The notes below the pieces were generated by a model. It was given only the letters and a program-made list of their open reading frames with translations, did not search any database and was not told where the DNA came from. Below, one piece after another: positions 1-11,802 of a stretch of 64,000 bases of DNA. A program made the position numbers and the translations under genes. The DNA is from an uncultured Lachnospiraceae bacterium (GTDB taxonomy: Bacteria; Bacillota; Clostridia; Lachnospirales; Lachnospiraceae): assembly GCA_947630295.1 (NCBI GenBank), contig CANRGZ010000001.1:1-64000 (forward strand), written 5' to 3'. Within the stretch, counting starts at the first letter, position 1; every line of letters starts with the position of its first letter.

Positions 1-860
1 CTAACAGCTTAAGCAACAAGATGGGTAATTCCTTACTGGCTGTAAGGGGTATTAACCATAAATATATTGTAGTAGAACTGCTAAAACTGTTTGACGATAA
101 CGAATTTATTGATTGGCTGTTGACATTGATTTTTGACGGGTTCAAAATCGATGTTTCGTATATGTCTGACGACGAATACGCAACATGCATGGGGGATACG
201 TTCAATAAATTGGAATACCGGTCAATCCCGAAAAACAAATTAACGGGCGAAAAGTTTATGGAAAAGTCCGTAAACATCGGAGACCAGTTATCACAGGTGA
301 TCGGGATTTATTACCCACATCGAATTGACACATATGTCAAGTATGTTCGAGGACAAAAGTTCTACGGAAGATATATGGATGATTGGTATATTATGAGTCC
401 GGATAAAGCAGAGCTGCTTGATATTTTGGAGAATATTCGAATCATCGCAAAGGAATACGGAATCCACATTAATGAGAAGAAGACGCACGTGGTTAAAATA
501 AGTGGAACTTACAGGTACTTACAAATCAAGTACACGCTTACAGGCAATGGTACGATCATTAAGCGGATTAATCCGAAACGTGTGACTGCGATGCGAAGGA
601 AATTGAAGAAACTTGCTGTTAAGGTTAAGAATGGTGATATTCTTTATGACAATGTCGAAAGTATGTTTAAAAGCTGGATGGGTAATTACCATAAATTACT
701 GTCCGATCAACAGAGGTGTAATCTGTTAATGCTCTTTGAAGAATTGTTCGATAAGCAGATTGCGATAATAAACCAAAAGATGTTTATTTTCGACACCCAA
801 ATAAAGAATATCACGAAGGTACAAGATATTGAAAGGGAGTTTGCATATGTCATTGCTTGA
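1..860 (+). CDS. Phage-type reverse transcriptase, 5'-truncated by window edge
   Basis: The frame is open to base 3, so the start lies outside the window; an internal ATG is at 21. The visible part (about 286 residues) holds the RT palm. IGDQLSQ lies near residues 86-92 counted from that ATG, and the catalytic YMDD lies in GRYMDDW near residues 117-122. A thumb-like segment with SWMGNYHKLLS follows. The [IVL]GxxxSQ form of motif 4, in place of QGxxxSP, is the form described for diversity-generating retroelement (DGR) RTs. There is no maturase or HNH domain, so it is not a group II intron protein. It sits just before the lysis genes of a prophage. A DGR template repeat would lie upstream, outside the window. 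Family call firm; DGR role inferred. Confidence 0.85.
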   Translation, partial: NSLSNKMGNSLLAVRGINHKYIVVELLKLFDDNEFIDWLLTLIFDGFKIDVSYMSDDEYATCMGDTFNKLEYRSIPKNKLTGEKFMEKSVNIGDQLSQVIGIYYPHRIDTYVKYVRGQKFYGRYMDDWYIMSPDKAELLDILENIRIIAKEYGIHINEKKTHVVKISGTYRYLQIKYTLTGNGTIIKRINPKRVTAMRRKLKKLAVKVKNGDILYDNVESMFKSWMGNYHKLLSDQQRCNLLMLFEELFDKQIAIINQKMFIFDTQIKNITKVQDIEREFAYVIA

Positions 861-1146
861 GATGATTATAACCATTATTTGTGCTGTTTTGGCCTCATCC
901 GGTTTTTGGGCATTTATTCAAAAGAAAAACGAAGCAAAAGATATTAAAACAAAGGTTCTCATTGGTTTAGGACATGATCGAATTGTGTATTTGGGAATGA
1001 AATACATTGATCAGGGCTGGATTACCCGCGCCGAGTATGAAAATTTATATGATTACTTGTACAAACCATATAAAGAGCTTGGCGGGAACGGTTCAGCCAT
1101 GAAAATTATGAAAGAAGTAGAAAAACTGGAAATACGTGAAAAATAG
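847..1146 (+). CDS. Small phage protein of the lysis region, N-terminal membrane segment
   Basis: This 99-residue product starts at ATG 847, 14 nt before the RT stop, behind an AAGGGAG site. Residues 4-20 (MIITIICAVLASSGFWAF) form one hydrophobic segment. The rest is charged and soluble, with a YLGMKYIDQGWIT stretch. Small proteins of this type sit just upstream of the holin in many Clostridia prophages. The biochemical role is not known; a holin partner or anti-holin is possible. Overlap with RT and the 10-nt gap to the holin support one late operon. Confidence 0.6.
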   Translation: MSLLEMIITIICAVLASSGFWAFIQKKNEAKDIKTKVLIGLGHDRIVYLGMKYIDQGWITRAEYENLYDYLYKPYKELGGNGSAMKIMKEVEKLEIREK

Positions 1147-1156
1147 GAGGATTACC

Positions 1157-1360
1157 ATGAAAATGAGCGATGAACTGTATAATGTATTGAAATGGATCGC
1201 GCAGTATTTACTTCCTGCCGCAGGAACTCTTTACTTTGCGTTAGCCGGTATCTGGGGTATGCCTTACGGCGAGCAGGTAGTAGGTACGATTACTGCGGTG
1301 GATACTTTTCTTGGAGTAATTCTGGGGATTAGCTCGGCTACTTATAAGAAAAATGAATAA
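1157..1360 (+). CDS. Phage holin, Dp-1-like
   Basis: This 67-residue protein is preceded by an AGGAGG site. It has two hydrophobic segments: about residues 10-28, with LLPAAGTLYFALAGIWG, and about 38-57, with VVGTITAVDTFLGVILGI. That two-segment pattern with a TITAVDTFLG motif is typical of Dp-1-like holins, which permeabilise the cytoplasmic membrane at lysis. The endolysin usually found next to such a holin is absent here. It may lie elsewhere in the prophage or be lost. The gene ends the late operon; a hairpin follows at 1388. Confidence 0.75.
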   Translation: MKMSDELYNVLKWIAQYLLPAAGTLYFALAGIWGMPYGEQVVGTITAVDTFLGVILGISSATYKKNE

Positions 1361-1387
1361 GATTTAGAAAAAGTTGATGGGAATACG

Positions 1388-1425
1388 GAAGCAGGAGGCT
1401 CGGTTAGCTTTCCTGCTTCTTCTAT
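1388..1425 (+). terminator. Hairpin after the holin
   Basis: A 9-bp perfect stem (GAAGCAGGA at 1388-1396 with TCCTGCTTC at 1411-1419) has a 14-nt loop and is followed by a T-rich run. It probably ends the late lysis transcript and separates it from xis-int. Confidence 0.65.
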
Positions 1426-1520
1426 ATTCCTGAATACATCCTCTTTTATTTTTCCCGTATTTAGGTTACGAAAAAAGTCGGTATCATACATTCAAAATGG
1501 TAACGATAGGAGTGATTGTT

Positions 1521-1724
1521 TTGGGATATAAAGACCGGGTGCCTTTGTGGGAGAAAAGTAATCTTACACTTGAAGAAGCTGCTGCTTATAGTGGGATTGG
1601 TATTAATAAGCTGAGAACTCTTTCTGATGATGAAAATTGTCCGTTTGTTCTTTGGGTTGGGAGTAAAAGATTGATTAAGCGCCGTTTATTTGATCAGTAT
1701 ATTGAGCAAGTATATTCGATCTAA
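1521..1724 (+). CDS. xis: Excisionase (Tn916 Xis-like)
   Basis: This small basic protein of 67 residues resembles Tn916-family Xis. It has PLWEKSNLTLEEAAAYSGIG followed by NKLRTL and a basic C-terminal KRLIKRR, which fits a winged-helix MerR/Xis fold. Xis bends the attachment site DNA and directs the integrase toward excision. I prefer TTG 1521, because AGGAG lies 8 nt before it; an in-frame ATG at 1497 has no such site. The gene is followed 98 nt later by the integrase, the usual xis-int order. Confidence 0.75.
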   Translation: MGYKDRVPLWEKSNLTLEEAAAYSGIGINKLRTLSDDENCPFVLWVGSKRLIKRRLFDQYIEQVYSI

Positions 1725-1770
1725 AGAACATTCTACCAAATTACTGATGTTAAAAGTGGGCTTTGTATGA

Positions 1771-1776
1771 TATAAT
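1771..1776 (+). promoter_or_regulatory. Likely -10 box of the integrase gene
   Basis: TATAAT preceded by TG one base upstream forms an extended -10. It lies 46 nt before the chosen integrase start at 1823 and makes the in-frame ATG at 1763 implausible as a start. No good -35 is visible. Confidence 0.5.
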
Positions 1777-1822
1777 GAATAAGTCATATCAAGGCTCTTT
1801 CCATTACGGAAAGGAGTTTGAA

Positions 1823-3022
1823 ATGTCTGAGAAACGAAAGGATCATAAAGGACGAATTTTAAAGACAGGAGAGAGCCAAAGAAAAGACCTGATTTACCAA
1901 TACCGCTACACAGATATTCGAGGGAAACGGCAAACTATCTATTCTTCCGATCTGAAAAGCTTGCGAGAGAAAGAAAAAGAAATTCAGAAGCAGCTTGACG
2001 ATGGGATGGATTATGCAGCCGGAAAGATTACTGTAATACAGTTATTGGAACGGTATATTAGCTTGAAGCAGGGCGTTCGTTATAACACTAAAGTTGGGTA
2101 TCGTTTTGTTTTGGATCTGATAAAAAAAGAGGATTTTGGATATAGGCAGATTCGAGACATTAAAATATCTGATGCTCAGATGTGGATCATGAAGCTTCAT
2201 AATGATGGCAAAGGATACAGCACCATTACAAGCGTTAGGGGAGTTGTCAAGCCGGCATTTCAGATAGCTTATAACGAAGACATTATCCGGAGAAACCCTT
2301 TTGATTTCAAACTAGTGGATGTCGTCTCTAATGATTCACAAAAGCGCATTGCCATGACCGAAGAACAGCAAAAAATCTGGATGAATTTTATCCGGGAGGA
2401 CAGAACCTACTGCAAATATTACGACGAATTTATTGTCCTTTTGGGAACAGGAATGCGTGTCAGTGAGTTTTGCGGCTTGACCAAGAATGATTTGGATTTT
2501 GAAAAGCGTAGAATTCGCGTGGATCATCAGCTTGTTCGGGAGAGAGGCGGCAGATATTATGTCGAGAAAACTAAAACTGAGTGCGGTATCCGTTTTATTC
2601 CTATGACGGATGAAGTATATCAAAGTATGAAAAATATTCTTGCCAACCGTCCAAAATTGAAAACCGAAATGATTGTGGATGGATACAGCGGTTTTTTGCT
2701 GATTGACAAGAATAACCATCCGAAGGTAGCTTTGCACATCGAGAATGAGATGCGGTGGGCAATGAAGAAATATAAAAAGCTGCATCCAGATCAGCCGCTT
2801 CCACATATTACCCCACACGTGTTTCGGCATACTTTTTGTACGAGTATGGCGAATGCCGGAATAGACATCAAGACTTTGCAGTATCTGATGGGACATTCCG
2901 ATGTCGGGGTAACGCTGAATGTTTATACCCATGCCAGCTATGACCGTGCTGTTGAGCAGATGGAAAAAATTGTTGATCTTAAACAGTTTGACAAACCGGA
3001 AAAGCGGAGAAAATCAGGTTGA
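1823..3022 (+). CDS. int: Tyrosine recombinase / prophage integrase (Tn916 Int type)
   Basis: This 399-residue site-specific recombinase has all catalytic residues in place: R212 in GTGMRVSEF, K251 in KTKTECGIRFIP, H332 and R335 in HVFRHTF, H358 in MGHSD, and the nucleophile Y368 in TLNVYTH. The N-terminal 60 residues resemble the arm-binding domain of Tn916 Int, followed by a core-binding SAM-like domain (about 70-160). The start at 1823 has AAGGAG at good spacing and lies downstream of an extended -10. Int is the last gene of the element. Phased repeats just after it (3051-3090) are candidate binding sites. Confidence 0.93.
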   Translation: MSEKRKDHKGRILKTGESQRKDLIYQYRYTDIRGKRQTIYSSDLKSLREKEKEIQKQLDDGMDYAAGKITVIQLLERYISLKQGVRYNTKVGYRFVLDLIKKEDFGYRQIRDIKISDAQMWIMKLHNDGKGYSTITSVRGVVKPAFQIAYNEDIIRRNPFDFKLVDVVSNDSQKRIAMTEEQQKIWMNFIREDRTYCKYYDEFIVLLGTGMRVSEFCGLTKNDLDFEKRRIRVDHQLVRERGGRYYVEKTKTECGIRFIPMTDEVYQSMKNILANRPKLKTEMIVDGYSGFLLIDKNNHPKVALHIENEMRWAMKKYKKLHPDQPLPHITPHVFRHTFCTSMANAGIDIKTLQYLMGHSDVGVTLNVYTHASYDRAVEQMEKIVDLKQFDKPEKRRKSG

Positions 3023-3240
3023 TTCTATACCAGTTTACTACACCATTTGCCCGTGAATCTGCGTAGATTTGTGTAGAATTACGTGGATTTGAGGCAAAAC
3101 AGAAAATCAGAGAAAAGCGCCGAAAAGCCCGAAATATCGGGATTTGCAGGCTTATGAAGGGATATAATATTTGAGATGGTAAAAATACTATTCGTCTGCC
3201 ATGGAAATATATGTAGAAGCCCAATGGCTGAGTTCATTTT
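3023..3240. other. Prophage-host junction (attachment region) entering the phosphatase gene
   Basis: AT-rich element sequence runs from the int stop through a small inverted repeat (CCCGA/TCGGG, about 3127-3141) and a TATAAT at 3163-3168 into the first codons of the phosphatase gene. The first about 20 codons use ATA, CTA, AGA and CCA; from about 3250 the gene switches to the GC-rich CTG/CGG usage of the host. The crossover therefore probably lies within 3200-3240. The other attachment site is outside the window, so the core cannot be defined here. Confidence 0.4.
3051..3090 (+). repeat. Four 10-bp direct repeats next to int, candidate Int/Xis sites
   Basis: Four consecutive 10-mers (CCGTGAATCT, GCGTAGATTT, GTGTAGAATT, ACGTGGATTT) share a loose NNGTRGATTT consensus and repeat with exact helical period. 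They lie 28 bp past the int stop, where arm-type integrase sites are expected. Assignment is by position and phasing only. Confidence 0.45.
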
Positions 3241-3643
3241 CAAAGACATGGTCCGCAAACGGGGCCTTTCCGACCGTTTTGAAATCGCCTCCCGGGCCAC
3301 CAGCACCGAGGAGATCGGCAATCCGGTGTATCCGCCGGCGCGGCGGGAGCTGGCGAAGCACGGACTGGGCTGCGAAGGAAAATATGCGGTGCAGATGCGG
3401 CGGAGCGATTATGACAAATATGACTATCTGATCGGCATGGACAGCGCCAATATCCGGAACATGCACCGGATTGCCGGCGGCGATCCGGATGGAAAGATAT
3501 ACAAACTGCTGTCCTTTACCGCCCGGGGCGGCGACGTGGCGGATCCCTGGTATACGGATCGCTTTGAGATTTCCTACCGGGATATTTCCGAAGGCTGCAC
3601 GGCGTTCCTGGACTGTCTGGAACGCGAAGGAAAACTGAAATAA
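3176..3643 (+). CDS. Low-molecular-weight protein tyrosine phosphatase
   Basis: This 155-residue cytoplasmic phosphatase has the family P-loop CHGNICRSP (C-x5-R-S) at residues 8-16 and the general-acid aspartate in ADPWYTDRFE near residue 122. Length is normal for the family. Such enzymes dephosphorylate phosphotyrosine or phosphoarginine proteins. The ribosome-binding site is weak (AAGGGA, 14 nt away). Base composition and codon use of the first 20 codons differ from the rest, which suggests that the 5' end was supplied by prophage integration. A strong hairpin follows the stop. Confidence 0.9.
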   Translation: MVKILFVCHGNICRSPMAEFIFKDMVRKRGLSDRFEIASRATSTEEIGNPVYPPARRELAKHGLGCEGKYAVQMRRSDYDKYDYLIGMDSANIRNMHRIAGGDPDGKIYKLLSFTARGGDVADPWYTDRFEISYRDISEGCTAFLDCLEREGKLK

Positions 3644-4895: not shown

Positions 4896-5888
4896 ATGCC
4901 CAAAAGCGCGAATCAAAAACTGAAACTGCTGTATCTTCTGAAAATACTGATGGAAAATACCGACGAAGCCCACAACATGACTATGAATGAACTGCTTGCG
5001 GCGCTTGCCGCATACGATATCAGCGCAGAACGGAAAAGCATTTATTCCGATCTGGAACTGCTGCGCAGCTTTGGGATTGACATTTTATCTGCACAGAAGG
5101 ACAAAAAGTACGGATATTATATCGGCAGCCGTACTTTTGAGGCTGCGGAACTGAAATTATTGGTGGACGCGGTGCAGTCATCCCGTTTCATTACACATAA
5201 AAAGTCCAATGAACTGATCCGGAAAATCGAAGGGCTCACCGGAAAATACGAAGCGTGGCAGCTGCAGCGGCAGGTGTATATGACGGAACGCGTCAAAACG
5301 CTGAATGAAAAAATTTATTACAGCGTGGATCAGATCCATACGGCCATCGGGGCGAATGTAAAAGTACGCTTTCAGTACTTTCGCTGGAATGAGAAAAAAG
5401 AAATGGAACTGCGCAGAGATGGCGCGTTTTACTGCATCAGTCCCTGGGCGCTGACTTGGGCGGAGGAAAACTACTATATGATCGGCTACGACAGCGCGGC
5501 AGGCAAACTCAAACATTACCGGGTGGACAAGATGCTGAAGCTGTCTTTGACCGACGAAAAACGGGAAGGTAAGGAAGCCTACCGGCAAATGGATCTGGCG
5601 GTGTATACGAAGAAAATGTTCGGAATGTTCGACGGCACGGAGCAGATGGTGCGGCTGGCGGTGGACAACAGCCTTGCAGGCGTGATCATTGACCGCTTCG
5701 GCATGGAACCGTCCTTTATTCCGCTGGACGAAACCCATTTTTCCGTGACGGTGCCGGTGGCGGTGAGCCGTCAGTTTCTGGCCTGGGTGATTGCCCTGGG
5801 AGACCGGGTAAAGGTGCTGTCCCCGCCGGAGGTGCGGGCGAGGCTGCAGGAAGAAGCGAAGCGGCTGCAGGAGACGTATTCCGTATAA
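4896..5888 (+). CDS. WYL-domain transcriptional regulator (YafY type)
   Basis: This 330-residue protein has an N-terminal winged helix (about 5-65, LKLLYLLKILMENTD), a WYL domain (about 130-220, with YCISPWALTWAEENYYMIGY and the YRVDKM strand) and a C-terminal WCX extension. WYL proteins bind small ligands or nucleic acid and regulate adjacent or stress genes. I chose ATG 4896 with GAGGG upstream. An alternative ATG at 4863 overlaps the stop of the oxidoreductase (ATGA) and adds 11 residues. It may regulate the oxidoreductase operon; that is inference. Confidence 0.85.
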   Translation: MPKSANQKLKLLYLLKILMENTDEAHNMTMNELLAALAAYDISAERKSIYSDLELLRSFGIDILSAQKDKKYGYYIGSRTFEAAELKLLVDAVQSSRFITHKKSNELIRKIEGLTGKYEAWQLQRQVYMTERVKTLNEKIYYSVDQIHTAIGANVKVRFQYFRWNEKKEMELRRDGAFYCISPWALTWAEENYYMIGYDSAAGKLKHYRVDKMLKLSLTDEKREGKEAYRQMDLAVYTKKMFGMFDGTEQMVRLAVDNSLAGVIIDRFGMEPSFIPLDETHFSVTVPVAVSRQFLAWVIALGDRVKVLSPPEVRARLQEEAKRLQETYSV

Positions 5889-5995
5889 AAAAATAAGAAC
5901 ATCCGTTTGACAAGTCCGTTTTATAGGACAGCAAATCCCCTATCATGTCATCAGAAACATTCATAACATTCATAAAATGACAGGAGGGGAAACAT

Positions 5996-6256
5996 ATGGA
6001 AATATTGATTTTCGGGTGTATCGGCGCTGCAGCGTGGATTTATGTAAAACGGACGGAAAAGAAAGCGGATGCTTATGCCCATCGGCACAGGATCGACTGG
6101 GAGCGGTATCGCAAAGACCGGGCGGCCCACCGGATGTCGGACTTTGAGGCAGATCAGAAACTGTTAAACGGCGCGTACAATGCTGCCACGTTGCCCAATC
6201 GTTTCTTTTATACCATAAACGAAAAAGTACAGACAGACGGATTCCGGGAATTGTAA
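5996..6256 (+). CDS. Small hypothetical protein with N-terminal membrane anchor
   Basis: This 86-residue product has a very good ribosome-binding site (AGGAGGGG). Residues 2-16 (EILIFGCIGAAAWIY) form a membrane anchor, followed by a highly charged cytoplasmic or helical tail rich in Lys, Arg and His. I do not recognise the family. A bulged inverted repeat (TTCCGGGAATT...AATTCCGGAA) covers its stop codon and may act as a terminator. Confidence 0.6.
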   Translation: MEILIFGCIGAAAWIYVKRTEKKADAYAHRHRIDWERYRKDRAAHRMSDFEADQKLLNGAYNAATLPNRFFYTINEKVQTDGFREL

Positions 6257-6421
6257 TTCCGGAAAAAATGCGGTATGATAGAAAAGAACTTTGCGGCATA
6301 ACCCATGAACGAAATCCCTGCCGGCAGCGGCAGACATAAAAAGCACGGATCAGACAGATACTATCATTACCCTGATGCGGCTGCAGTTGAAACGCCGGGT
6401 CAGGCGGAAACGGAGGACGGC

Positions 6422-6631
6422 ATGAAGAGTTTGCTGATCAAAGATACGACAAAAGAGGAACGGGAAGCCATTATCCGGCAGTCTCTGGACTGCGGCGGCG
6501 GATGTGAAAACTGTTCATCCTGCTGGCTGGGCGGCGGAAATCCTTTTGATATCTACCAGCCATATATCGACGGAGAAAAGGAACTTTCCGAAATCAACGC
6601 GGCAGCCCGGGCAGGCTTTGTCAGAGGTTGA
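6422..6631 (+). CDS. Small cysteine-rich conserved protein
   Basis: This 69-residue product starts at ATG 6422 with GGAGG 7 nt upstream; an upstream ATG at 6305 lacks a site. Four cysteines in CGGGCENCSSC (residues 24-34) could bind metal. The C-terminus has YQPYIDGEKELSEINAA. Similar short proteins are widespread in Clostridia; the function is unknown to me. It lies 28 nt upstream of the YdcF-type gene and may be in its operon. Confidence 0.65.
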   Translation: MKSLLIKDTTKEEREAIIRQSLDCGGGCENCSSCWLGGGNPFDIYQPYIDGEKELSEINAAARAGFVRG

Positions 6632-8259: not shown

Positions 8260-10001
8260 GTAAATACCTGAAGAAATACTGGATATTTGCGGTGCTTGCA
8301 CCGCTTTTTATGCTGGGCGAGGTGACAATGGATCTGCTGCAGCCCAGACTGATGAGCACCATTGTGGATGAGGGCGTGCTGGGTCTGCACAATCACAATG
8401 TCGGAAATCTGCAGCTGGTCATTTCCACGGGGCTGCAGATGATCGGGCTGGTACTGATCGGCTGCTGCTGCGGTATTTTATCCGGGGTGTTCGCCAATCT
8501 GTGCAGCCAGAACTTCGGAAATGACCTCAGAAAAGACGCATTCCGGCGGATCATGTCCTTTTCCTTTGAACAGACGGAAGGATTCTCTACCGGGTCGCTG
8601 ATTACCCGGGTGACCAACGACATCACGCAGGTGCAGAATCTGGTGATGCAGTCCATCAGAGGCTTTGTAAGAACCTTTTTATTATTTGGCGGCGGCATTT
8701 TTTTTATGCTGGGACTGGATTTGAGTTTCGGCGTTGTCGTGGCGTGCGCACTCCCGCTGGTGATTTTGTGCGCCGCTTTTTTTATTGGAAAGGCAAGTCC
8801 GAAGTTCAGCGTGCTGCAGAGCCGTCTGGACCGGGTCAACAGCATTCTGCAGGAAAATCTTTCCGGCGCCAGAGTGGTGAAAGCCTATGTAAAAGAACCC
8901 TATGAACAGGCGCGTTTTCAGACGGCGAATACACAGTTGGTGGGAACGCAGGTGGATATCCTGCTGCTCTTTTCCTATATGACGCCGATCATGAATATTA
9001 TTTTGAATATTTCGGTGGCGGCGGTGATCAAAGTGGGTGCCATCCATGTGCAGGCCGGTACGATTACGCCGGGCAATGTCATGGCGGCCATCACCTATGT
9101 TTCCCAGATTTTAAATGCGGTGGTCCGGGTCTCCATGATTTTTCAGACGATTTCCAGGGGCGCCGCTTCCGGCCGGCGGATCAGCGAGGTTTTGCGCTGC
9201 GCGCCGGTGATTACCGACGGCAGTTTTTCCGGAGATACGAAGGAAAAGGGAACGGTGGAATTCAGAGATGTTTCCTTTGCATATCCTGGCATGGGCACGG
9301 AACAGGTGCTGCAGCATATCAATCTGCGGATTGCCGCAGGAGAGACTATCGGCATCCTGGGTTCCACCGGATGCGGAAAATCCACGCTGGTCAGCCTGAT
9401 TCCCCGTTTTTATGATGTGACGGAGGGAAGCGTTCTGGTTGACGGGGTGGATGTAAAAGATTACCGGCTGAAGGAACTGCGGGACAAGGTTTCTTTTGCC
9501 CTGCAGAAGAGTGAGATTTTCAGCACCAGCATTGCGGAAAATATCCGCTGGGGCAAACCGGAGGCGTCGGCGGAGGAACTGGCGCAGGCGGCTTCATCCG
9601 CCCAGGCCATGGAGTTTATACAGCAGAGAAGCGACGGATTTGAGACGGAAGTGGCCCAGCAGGGCATGAGCCTTTCCGGCGGACAGAAGCAGCGGCTGGC
9701 CATCAGCCGGGCGCTGGTGAAGCCGGCGGAAATATTGATTTTAGATGATGCGACGAGCGCCCTGGATCTGCGCACGGAGCACAGGCTGTACGAGGCGCTG
9801 GAAACCTATCATCCGGAGATGACCAAAATCATTATCGCACAGCGGATCCATTCGGTGATGGACGCCGATCGGATCGTGGTGCTGGAAAACGGAGAAATCG
9901 CGGACGTGGGAACCCATGCTGAACTGCTGGAAAACAGTGAGGTTTACCGGGAAATATACCGCTCACAGCTTAAGACCGGAGGTGAGACGGATGTCCGGTG
10001 A
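8256..10001 (+). CDS. ABC exporter half-transporter, first subunit
   Basis: This 581-residue protein has a six-helix membrane domain (about 10-305) fused to an ATPase domain (about 335-575). Walker A is GSTGCGKST, the signature is LSGGQKQR, Walker B is ILILDDATSALD. Walker B ends in Asp-Asp rather than Asp-Glu, so this is probably the non-canonical site of a heterodimeric exporter of the BmrCD/LmrCD kind. The next gene supplies the canonical ILILDEAT partner. The start overlaps the FNT stop. Confidence 0.9.
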   Translation: MSKYLKKYWIFAVLAPLFMLGEVTMDLLQPRLMSTIVDEGVLGLHNHNVGNLQLVISTGLQMIGLVLIGCCCGILSGVFANLCSQNFGNDLRKDAFRRIMSFSFEQTEGFSTGSLITRVTNDITQVQNLVMQSIRGFVRTFLLFGGGIFFMLGLDLSFGVVVACALPLVILCAAFFIGKASPKFSVLQSRLDRVNSILQENLSGARVVKAYVKEPYEQARFQTANTQLVGTQVDILLLFSYMTPIMNIILNISVAAVIKVGAIHVQAGTITPGNVMAAITYVSQILNAVVRVSMIFQTISRGAASGRRISEVLRCAPVITDGSFSGDTKEKGTVEFRDVSFAYPGMGTEQVLQHINLRIAAGETIGILGSTGCGKSTLVSLIPRFYDVTEGSVLVDGVDVKDYRLKELRDKVSFALQKSEIFSTSIAENIRWGKPEASAEELAQAASSAQAMEFIQQRSDGFETEVAQQGMSLSGGQKQRLAISRALVKPAEILILDDATSALDLRTEHRLYEALETYHPEMTKIIIAQRIHSVMDADRIVVLENGEIADVGTHAELLENSEVYREIYRSQLKTGGETDVR

Positions 10002-11802
10002 GACCAATGCGCAGATCAGCAATTATAAAATTCCCGGTATGCGGGGACCCCGCAGCCGGCAGGCGGCGGAGAAAGCAAAGGACAAAAAGGGAACGCTGCG
10101 GCGGCTGGTGCAGTATTTTGCAAAGGAAAAGAAAATCGTTCTGTTTCTGCTGATTGCGGTGCTGCTTTCCGTCGTCTGCTCTGTTTACGCGCCGAAGCTG
10201 CAGAGCGACGCCATCGATCTGATCGCGGAAGGACGGTTTACGGGACTGAATGATATTTTGATCATTATGATTCTCATACATACCGGCAACAGCTTCTGCA
10301 CCTTTATTCAGGGCAGGTACAGCGCCATATTAAGCCAGAACATTGTCAGCAGGATGCGGAAAGACCTGTTCGATAAAATCGTCAATCTGCCGGTAAGCTA
10401 TCTGGACCGGCATTCCCACGGCGATATGATGAGCCGGATGACCAACGACGTGGAAAACATTTCCAATACGGTTTCCCAGTCTATGAGTTCTCTGTTTTCC
10501 GGGGTATTTACTGTCATCGGAACGGTGGGAATGATGCTGTATCTTTCCTGGAAACTGGCCCTTCTGTCCTGTTTTACGATTGTATTGACGGTGACGGCCA
10601 CAAAGTTTCTTTCGGCGGCCATGCGGCGCTTTTATACGAAACGGCAGATTCTGCTGGGCAGCTTAAACGGTACCGTGGAGGAAATGGTGACGGGGTACAA
10701 AACCGTCGTCGCCTACAACCGGCAGGAAGCCGTGATGGCGGCGTTTGACAGCAATTCAGACGAACTGACCAAAACGGGTATCGCGGCGGAAATTCTGGGC
10801 GGTTCCATGGGGCCGGTGATGAACGTCATTAACAATATCGGATTTGTAATTATTGCCGCCTTCGGCGGATATTTCGCGATTAAGGGAAGTATTTCCGTGG
10901 GAATTATTTCCGCCTTTATCGTTTACGCGAAGCAGTTCGGACGGCCCATCGACGAAATCGCGCAGATTTACGGGCAGATTCAGACCGCCATTGCAGGCGC
11001 GGAACGGGTGTTTGAGATCATGGACGAGGCGGACGAGGACCGTGCGGGGACCTTAAGGTTGGGAGAGGGCGCCGGCGTTATCCGGTTTAAGAACGTAAAT
11101 TTCTCGTATCTTCCCGGCAAACAGGTCATCTATGATTTTGACTTTGAGGTGCGGGCTGGACATAAGATTGCGCTGGTGGGGGCCACCGGCAGCGGGAAAA
11201 CCACCATGGTCAATCTGCTGATGCGTTTCTATAACGTGGACAGCGGAGAAATCTTGATCGACGGCGTCAATATCCGGGATATTGATCGGGATACGCTGCG
11301 TAAGAATATTGCCATTGTACTGCAGGATACGATTTTGTTTGCGGACAGCATTCGCAGCAATATTGCTTATTCCAGAGAAGACGCCACCATGGAGGAAGTG
11401 GTCGCGGCGGCGAAGATGAGCCATGCCCACCGGATGATTCGGCATTTGCCCCGGGGCTATGATACGGTGCTGACGGAGTCCGGGTACAATCTTTCCCAGG
11501 GACAGCGGCAGCTTCTGGCTATTGCCCGGGCATTTCTGGCCAATCCGAAAATATTGATTCTGGATGAGGCCACTTCCAGCGTTGATACCCGGACGGAGAA
11601 GCATATTCAGGACGCGATGATCCGGCTGATGAAGGATCGCACCAGTTTGATTATTGCCCACCGGCTTTCCACGATCCAGGACGCGGACTGTATTGTGGTG
11701 ATGGATCAGGGAAGAATTATCGAAACAGGCAATCACGAAGAGCTGCTTGCAAAAAAAGGAAAGTATTATGAACTCTACACCAGCAATGATGTTGAAGAAT
11801 AA
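9991..11802 (+). CDS. ABC exporter half-transporter, second subunit
   Basis: This 603-residue protein has a basic N-terminal extension of about 45 residues, a membrane domain (about 50-335) and an ATPase domain (about 360-600). It has Walker A GATGSGKTT, Walker B ILILDEATSSVD and signature LSQGQRQ. It carries the catalytic Glu missing in its partner, so the pair is likely one heterodimeric multidrug or lipid exporter. The start at 9991 has GGAGGTGA upstream and lies inside the end of the previous gene. The substrate is not determinable. Confidence 0.9.
   Translation: MSGETNAQISNYKIPGMRGPRSRQAAEKAKDKKGTLRRLVQYFAKEKKIVLFLLIAVLLSVVCSVYAPKLQSDAIDLIAEGRFTGLNDILIIMILIHTGNSFCTFIQGRYSAILSQNIVSRMRKDLFDKIVNLPVSYLDRHSHGDMMSRMTNDVENISNTVSQSMSSLFSGVFTVIGTVGMMLYLSWKLALLSCFTIVLTVTATKFLSAAMRRFYTKRQILLGSLNGTVEEMVTGYKTVVAYNRQEAVMAAFDSNSDELTKTGIAAEILGGSMGPVMNVINNIGFVIIAAFGGYFAIKGSISVGIISAFIVYAKQFGRPIDEIAQIYGQIQTAIAGAERVFEIMDEADEDRAGTLRLGEGAGVIRFKNVNFSYLPGKQVIYDFDFEVRAGHKIALVGATGSGKTTMVNLLMRFYNVDSGEILIDGVNIRDIDRDTLRKNIAIVLQDTILFADSIRSNIAYSREDATMEEVVAAAKMSHAHRMIRHLPRGYDTVLTESGYNLSQGQRQLLAIARAFLANPKILILDEATSSVDTRTEKHIQDAMIRLMKDRTSLIIAHRLSTIQDADCIVVMDQGRIIETGNHEELLAKKGKYYELYTSNDVEE

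Follow-up and report, generated by a model that had tools for sequence, protein, structure and literature searches.

We found that a phage reverse transcriptase (RT) gene of the diversity-generating retroelement (DGR) kind has very probably been broken by the insertion of an IS110-family element after its first catalytic motif, which would have inactivated this copy. The gene lies at the left edge of the window, i.e., the whole stretch of 64,000 bases that was analyzed. DGRs alter a phage binding protein: the RT copies a template RNA with adenine errors, and the variable repeat (VR) of the target gene is then exchanged for the mutated cDNA. The prophage in question would formerly have carried a standard phage DGR, which would have included a target gene with a C-terminal VR, Avd, a template repeat (TR), and the RT of the window. 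An IS110-family element would have entered the RT gene just past the motif named above, leaving in the window the RT sequence that follows the insertion point.

Lacking its first catalytic aspartate along with all else in the N-terminal half, the window copy should yield no active enzyme; its function has probably been lost. The left flank of the insertion was not found. Thus we infer an insertion (and not a deletion, or a rearrangement that stops at a copy of IS110), together with the loss of activity and the former presence of a TR and a VR in this very prophage. It could also be supposed that the element is a reversible switch, i.e., that its precise excision would restore the RT gene and that the DGR is off during lysogeny rather than dead. 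We consider such a switch very unlikely.

Truncated reverse transcriptase at the right end of a prophage

The features of the left part of the window are listed in Table 1.

Table 1. Features at the left end of the window and the evidence for them
Feature	Position	Strand	Comment
Terminal 74 bases of an IS110-family element	1..74		End upstream of its transposase, which would be leftwards on the - strand
C-terminal remnant of a phage DGR RT	75..860	+	Motif 4 IGDQLSQ, motif 5 YMDD, and the C-terminal region kept; N-terminal half with DFSKFYDN missing
Small phage protein, phrog_4105, function unknown	847..1146	+	Between RT and holin
Holin, Dp-1 type	1157..1360	+	PF16938 E 1.2e-30, phrog_881
Excisionase, Tn916 type	1497..1724	+	PF09035 E 5.6e-23
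Tyrosine integrase of the prophage	1823..3022	+	PF00589 E 4.7e-34, PF02920 E 1.3e-22
Probable right attachment region	about 3176-3235	+	Would lie in the 5' end of the host low-molecular-weight phosphatase gene

An earlier note on this DNA reported, at the left edge of the window, an RT whose motif 4, IGDQLSQ, is of the DGR type and whose catalytic site is YMDDW. This is confirmed. Both motifs are found in a frame (3..860, + strand) that runs open to the window's left edge and matches both RVT_1 (PF00078, E 2.1e-9, above the Pfam cut-off) and phrog_1423, “Reverse transcriptase” (E 1.5e-23). The earlier note, however, took the RT to span bases 1-860. This is correct for bases 75-860, but bases 1-74 belong to the end of an IS110-family element, and the break in the gene was overlooked.

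The RT begins at base 75 with GAA CTG, the codons of the E-L pair that follows ...AKR in intact relatives. In the alignment with full-length RTs, the window protein starts after DFSKFYDNIIHEIAKR and retains all conserved blocks from there to the C-terminus. Everything ahead of “ELLKLF” is absent, including the DFSKFYDN motif of the relatives, so the RT is not full-length; this N-terminal half is missing from the assembly as well as from the copy itself. The remnant contains no stop codon or frameshift, and the frame happens to run open from the IS end into the RT. Therefore the remnant may be young, or it may be an assembly join. The first base of the window is also the first base of contig C1 (100,930 bases) in an assembly of 1,916,736 bases and 121 contigs; thus the contig boundary truncates the RT.

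The genes downstream of the RT, which encode a holin, a Tn916-type excisionase, and an integrase, mark the right end of a prophage and verify the suggestion that the RT gene lies within one. The RT had also been described as adjacent to lysis genes. This is true of one such gene, the holin; no other lysis gene was recognized downstream, and the immediate neighbor of the RT is the phrog_4105 gene. The latter follows the RT in 59 of the 86 relatives that have more than 700 bases downstream. In the host phosphatase gene, the first codons differ from those of genus relatives in DNA, with the protein start kept; past these codons, DNA identity to genus relatives is ~92-93% over the matched stretch.

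Kinship with the reverse transcriptases of DGRs

The motif definition of DGR RTs, as given in the DiGReF survey, is (I/V/L)GxxxSQ in motif 4 combined with YxDD (PMC3521204). The window RT has IGDQLSQ and YMDD at these positions.

The earlier note proposed to place the RT in a phylogeny. In a 41-row tree, for which the program flagged long branches, including that of BPP-1, and a bootstrap not yet fully settled, the window RT was placed among SQ RTs, inside a 28-row IGxxxSQ clade that includes the bRT of BPP-1 (support 100/99). It also belongs to a 19-row subclade (100/100). Thirteen GxxxSP rows from relatives, 12 of them QGxxxSP, are split from the SQ clade at 100/99. A frame was extracted from 83 of the relatives, and 20 of these entered the tree, which includes no named defense or retron RT; two RVT_1 rows (L161, L164) were dropped beforehand, and some RVT_1 loci have no row because the motif filter selected no frame in them. 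A profile built without BPP-1 had the BPP-1 bRT (PDB 8ub7) as its best PDB match with 76.7 bits, whereas a group II intron RT scored 55.6 bits.

The relatives comprise 88 loci, 51 from viral contigs and 37 from genome contigs, and several of them are near-duplicates. Self-comparison revealed a TR/VR-like pair in 73 of these loci. Adenines make up 1775 of 6584 TR columns, and 1144 of the 1190 TR/VR mismatches fall on them; this share of 96% is conditional on the filter, which accepts only pairs in which A or T of one copy accounts for 70% or more of the mismatches. When the filter was run for other bases, it accepted pairs in 0 (C), 4 (G), and 2 (T) of the 88 loci. Among the 15 relatives with no TR/VR pair, nine start too near the match (less than 1.8 kb ahead of it), unlike the other six (L057, L064, L065, L072, L090, L130). 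Avd is found upstream of the RT in 80 of the 81 relatives with room for it.

The closest known systems include DGRs in prophages of Lachnospiraceae and of related Clostridia. The example that we describe is from Hungatella hathewayi DSM 13479 (CP102274.1; L034/L117). Its order is a target gene (324 aa) with the VR, Avd (phrog_3206), the TR, the RT (398 aa), and a phrog_4105 gene; 13 of 13 TR/VR mismatches are at A. Its RT is 73% identical to that of the window over 241 residues, and the phrog_4105 gene is downstream of the RT in both. The H. hathewayi locus is complete, but for the window copy no RT N-terminal half, Avd, TR, VR, or target is present in the assembly that is available.

The position on the tree, the TR/VR pairs beside most relatives, and the match of gene order to the H. 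hathewayi DGR bear out the DGR nature of the RT that was initially suggested by its motif. The assignment of the window RT to DGR RTs is strongly supported.

The same data bear on two other origins of the gene. It is extremely improbable that the RT is a defense (DRT/Abi/UG), retron, or CRISPR-linked one. Such an RT is hinted at by weak matches to PADLOC models (the best is RT_UG4, E 5.9e-12), but NCBIfam Drt3a, Drt4, and Drt5 gave 25.6, 16.8, and 19.9 bits against cut-offs of 200, 450, and 550 for a query that is a partial protein. The NCBIfam retron matches are far under their cut-offs too, and the SQ motif, the tree position, and the TR/VR pairs of the relatives all disagree with this origin. 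Even less probable, in our view, is that the RT is what is left of a group II intron protein that had inserted into the prophage: the orthologues have TR/VR, the motif is IGxxxSQ instead of QGxxxSP, and the GxxxSP rows are separated from the SQ clade on the tree. The TIGR04416 match on which a group II intron origin could be based has 40.6 bits and does not reach the cut-off of 300 bits, the query again being partial. The window RT is thus best read as a DGR RT.

DGR targets are known to be lectin-like. The AlphaFold2 model built from 29 targets of the relatives has a pLDDT of 83.8. Its residues 113-324 match a domain of the T. ramosa IgA peptidase (Z 12.5, rmsd 2.6, 162 aligned), the C-terminal domain of Legionella Lcl (Z 7.5, rmsd 4.9, 125 aligned), and many C-type lectin chains (Z ~4-6), and the model also matches a Bacteroides fimbrial protein (Z 8.3, rmsd 3.9, 157 aligned). 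With Foldseek alone, the IgA peptidase was the single match with E no higher than 0.001, and a Pfam search with the target and Avd gave nothing. The model is consistent with a lectin-like C-terminal domain in the targets of the relatives, though it is not proof of one.

The IS110 terminus and the missing left half

The first 73-77 bases of the window are identical to the ends of four other contigs of the same assembly (C29, C26, C101, C104). The five contig ends diverge after ...TTGTAGTA, which corresponds to base 74 of the window. Similar sequence was found in 14 of the 98 genomes searched, including the genome under study. In one related genome (G034), the same 77 bases are located 170 bases upstream of an IS110 transposase gene (L037:955-2202), whose product scores 189.5 bits against NF033542 (cut-off 140); hence an IS110 transposase does lie beside this terminus. 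The terminus seen in the window is also common to two copies of a 1.6-kb element in H. hathewayi DSM 13479. Based on the shared contig ends, the occurrence in other genomes, and the adjoining transposase, bases 1-74 are identified by sequence as an IS110 terminus and not as a part of the RT.

The other end of the element is found at the ends of three contigs of the studied genome (C14, C78, C89), and AGTCT precedes GCAAATAAAAAG in all three flanks. Altogether the assembly is broken by an IS110-family element in at least five places. No IS110 transposase was found in this assembly, as is expected if the body of the element was left out of the bin.

The break could alternatively be an artifact: the real genome would have an intact DGR, the IS110 end at the contig start would be an assembly join, and the left half of the prophage would be in an unbinned contig. 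The assembly does consist of 121 contigs, the shared ends of 73-77 bases resemble what k-mer overlap in an assembly graph would presumably leave, and the left genes of the prophage are missing from the bin. However, the shared bases form a genuine IS110 terminus, which is found inside contigs of other genomes, and the RT continues in frame directly after the last IS110 base, as an insertion predicts. We therefore consider an assembly join unlikely and retain the insertion into the RT gene as the preferred reading.

The IS110 end was also sought in the 88 related loci, and the only match was one of 15 bases in L116. Recurrent IS110 hits at the same RT site were considered as well and rejected. 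The starts of two loci, L116 and L076, lie ~70 bases away from this RT position, yet ordinary RT sequence is found there.

The TR and the VR had been expected just to the left of the RT. For this genome their presence is not shown, since the contig ends in IS110 within the RT gene and the searches of the assembly returned only a distant DGR on contig 6. In particular, the N-terminal part of the RT, with the contig-6 and H. hathewayi RTs as queries, had matches in the assembly only on contig 6 and contig 1. Avd and the target gene of the relatives matched only the contig-6 DGR, and the TR, searched as DNA, matched contig 6 and two further places at chance level. Tail proteins of the H. hathewayi prophage gave no match in the assembly, in a search that had no positive control in this genome. 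No direct repeats of at least 25 bases were found in bases 1-3300 of the window, the DNA upstream of the RT being missing from the contig.

The DGR on contig 6 (C6; L007:8635-11776) is complete. It consists of a 321-aa target with a VR, an Avd-like phrog_3206 protein, a TR, and a 410-aa RT, and 11 of its 13 TR/VR mismatches fall on TR adenines. Its RT is 44% identical to the window RT; unlike the window copy, it is complete, and it belongs to another DGR lineage on the tree. Its neighbors we take, from their translations, to be rpsB/tsf/topA-like genes.

Comparison with known systems

The DGR locus of the Bordetella phage BPP-1 (NC_005357) is complete and experimentally active. Its RT, with IGSLTSQ and YMDD, falls in one clade with the window RT, and its gene order, target-Avd-TR-RT, is that of the relatives of the window RT. 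Sequence identity between the two RTs is only 21%.

In the DiGReF survey (PMC3521204), SQ-motif RTs are described in which no TR/VR can be detected, either because the RT is truncated or because the DGR is lost at the end of a contig. The window RT resembles them in being an SQ-motif RT with no detectable TR/VR and adds a likely cause, the IS110 terminus. DGR genes in prophages of gut Clostridia have been reported as well (PMC11318856, PMC11792537). A search of the available literature gave no paper that combines IS110 with a diversity-generating retroelement, which says little because such an event is unremarkable.

The window RT is thus a real, partly preserved case of a well-known kind of system, and the broken copy is new. 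It demonstrates that orthologues can reveal the DGR nature of an SQ-motif RT located at a contig end, even though its own repeats are missing. The copy also exemplifies the decay of a prophage DGR, with a likely cause. The view of how DGRs work is unchanged.

Decayed DGR RTs are found among the relatives too. In L132 (H. hathewayi WAL-18680; 5875-6486), RT residues 1-234 are missing and the TR adjoins the remainder. In L090 (5880-6429), residues 1-254 are missing and apparent Avd sequence is joined to the remainder.

Two further observations concern individual relatives. The locus L127 (JAFURY010000084.1) encodes a close relative of the window RT (66%) in a record named Succinivibrionaceae (Pseudomonadota), which may reflect either transfer or a misbinned contig. 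In the viral contig L067 (4231-4312 and 10257-10338), the TR has a second VR-like copy, which lies in another gene (9480-10355), with 16 of 20 mismatches at A.
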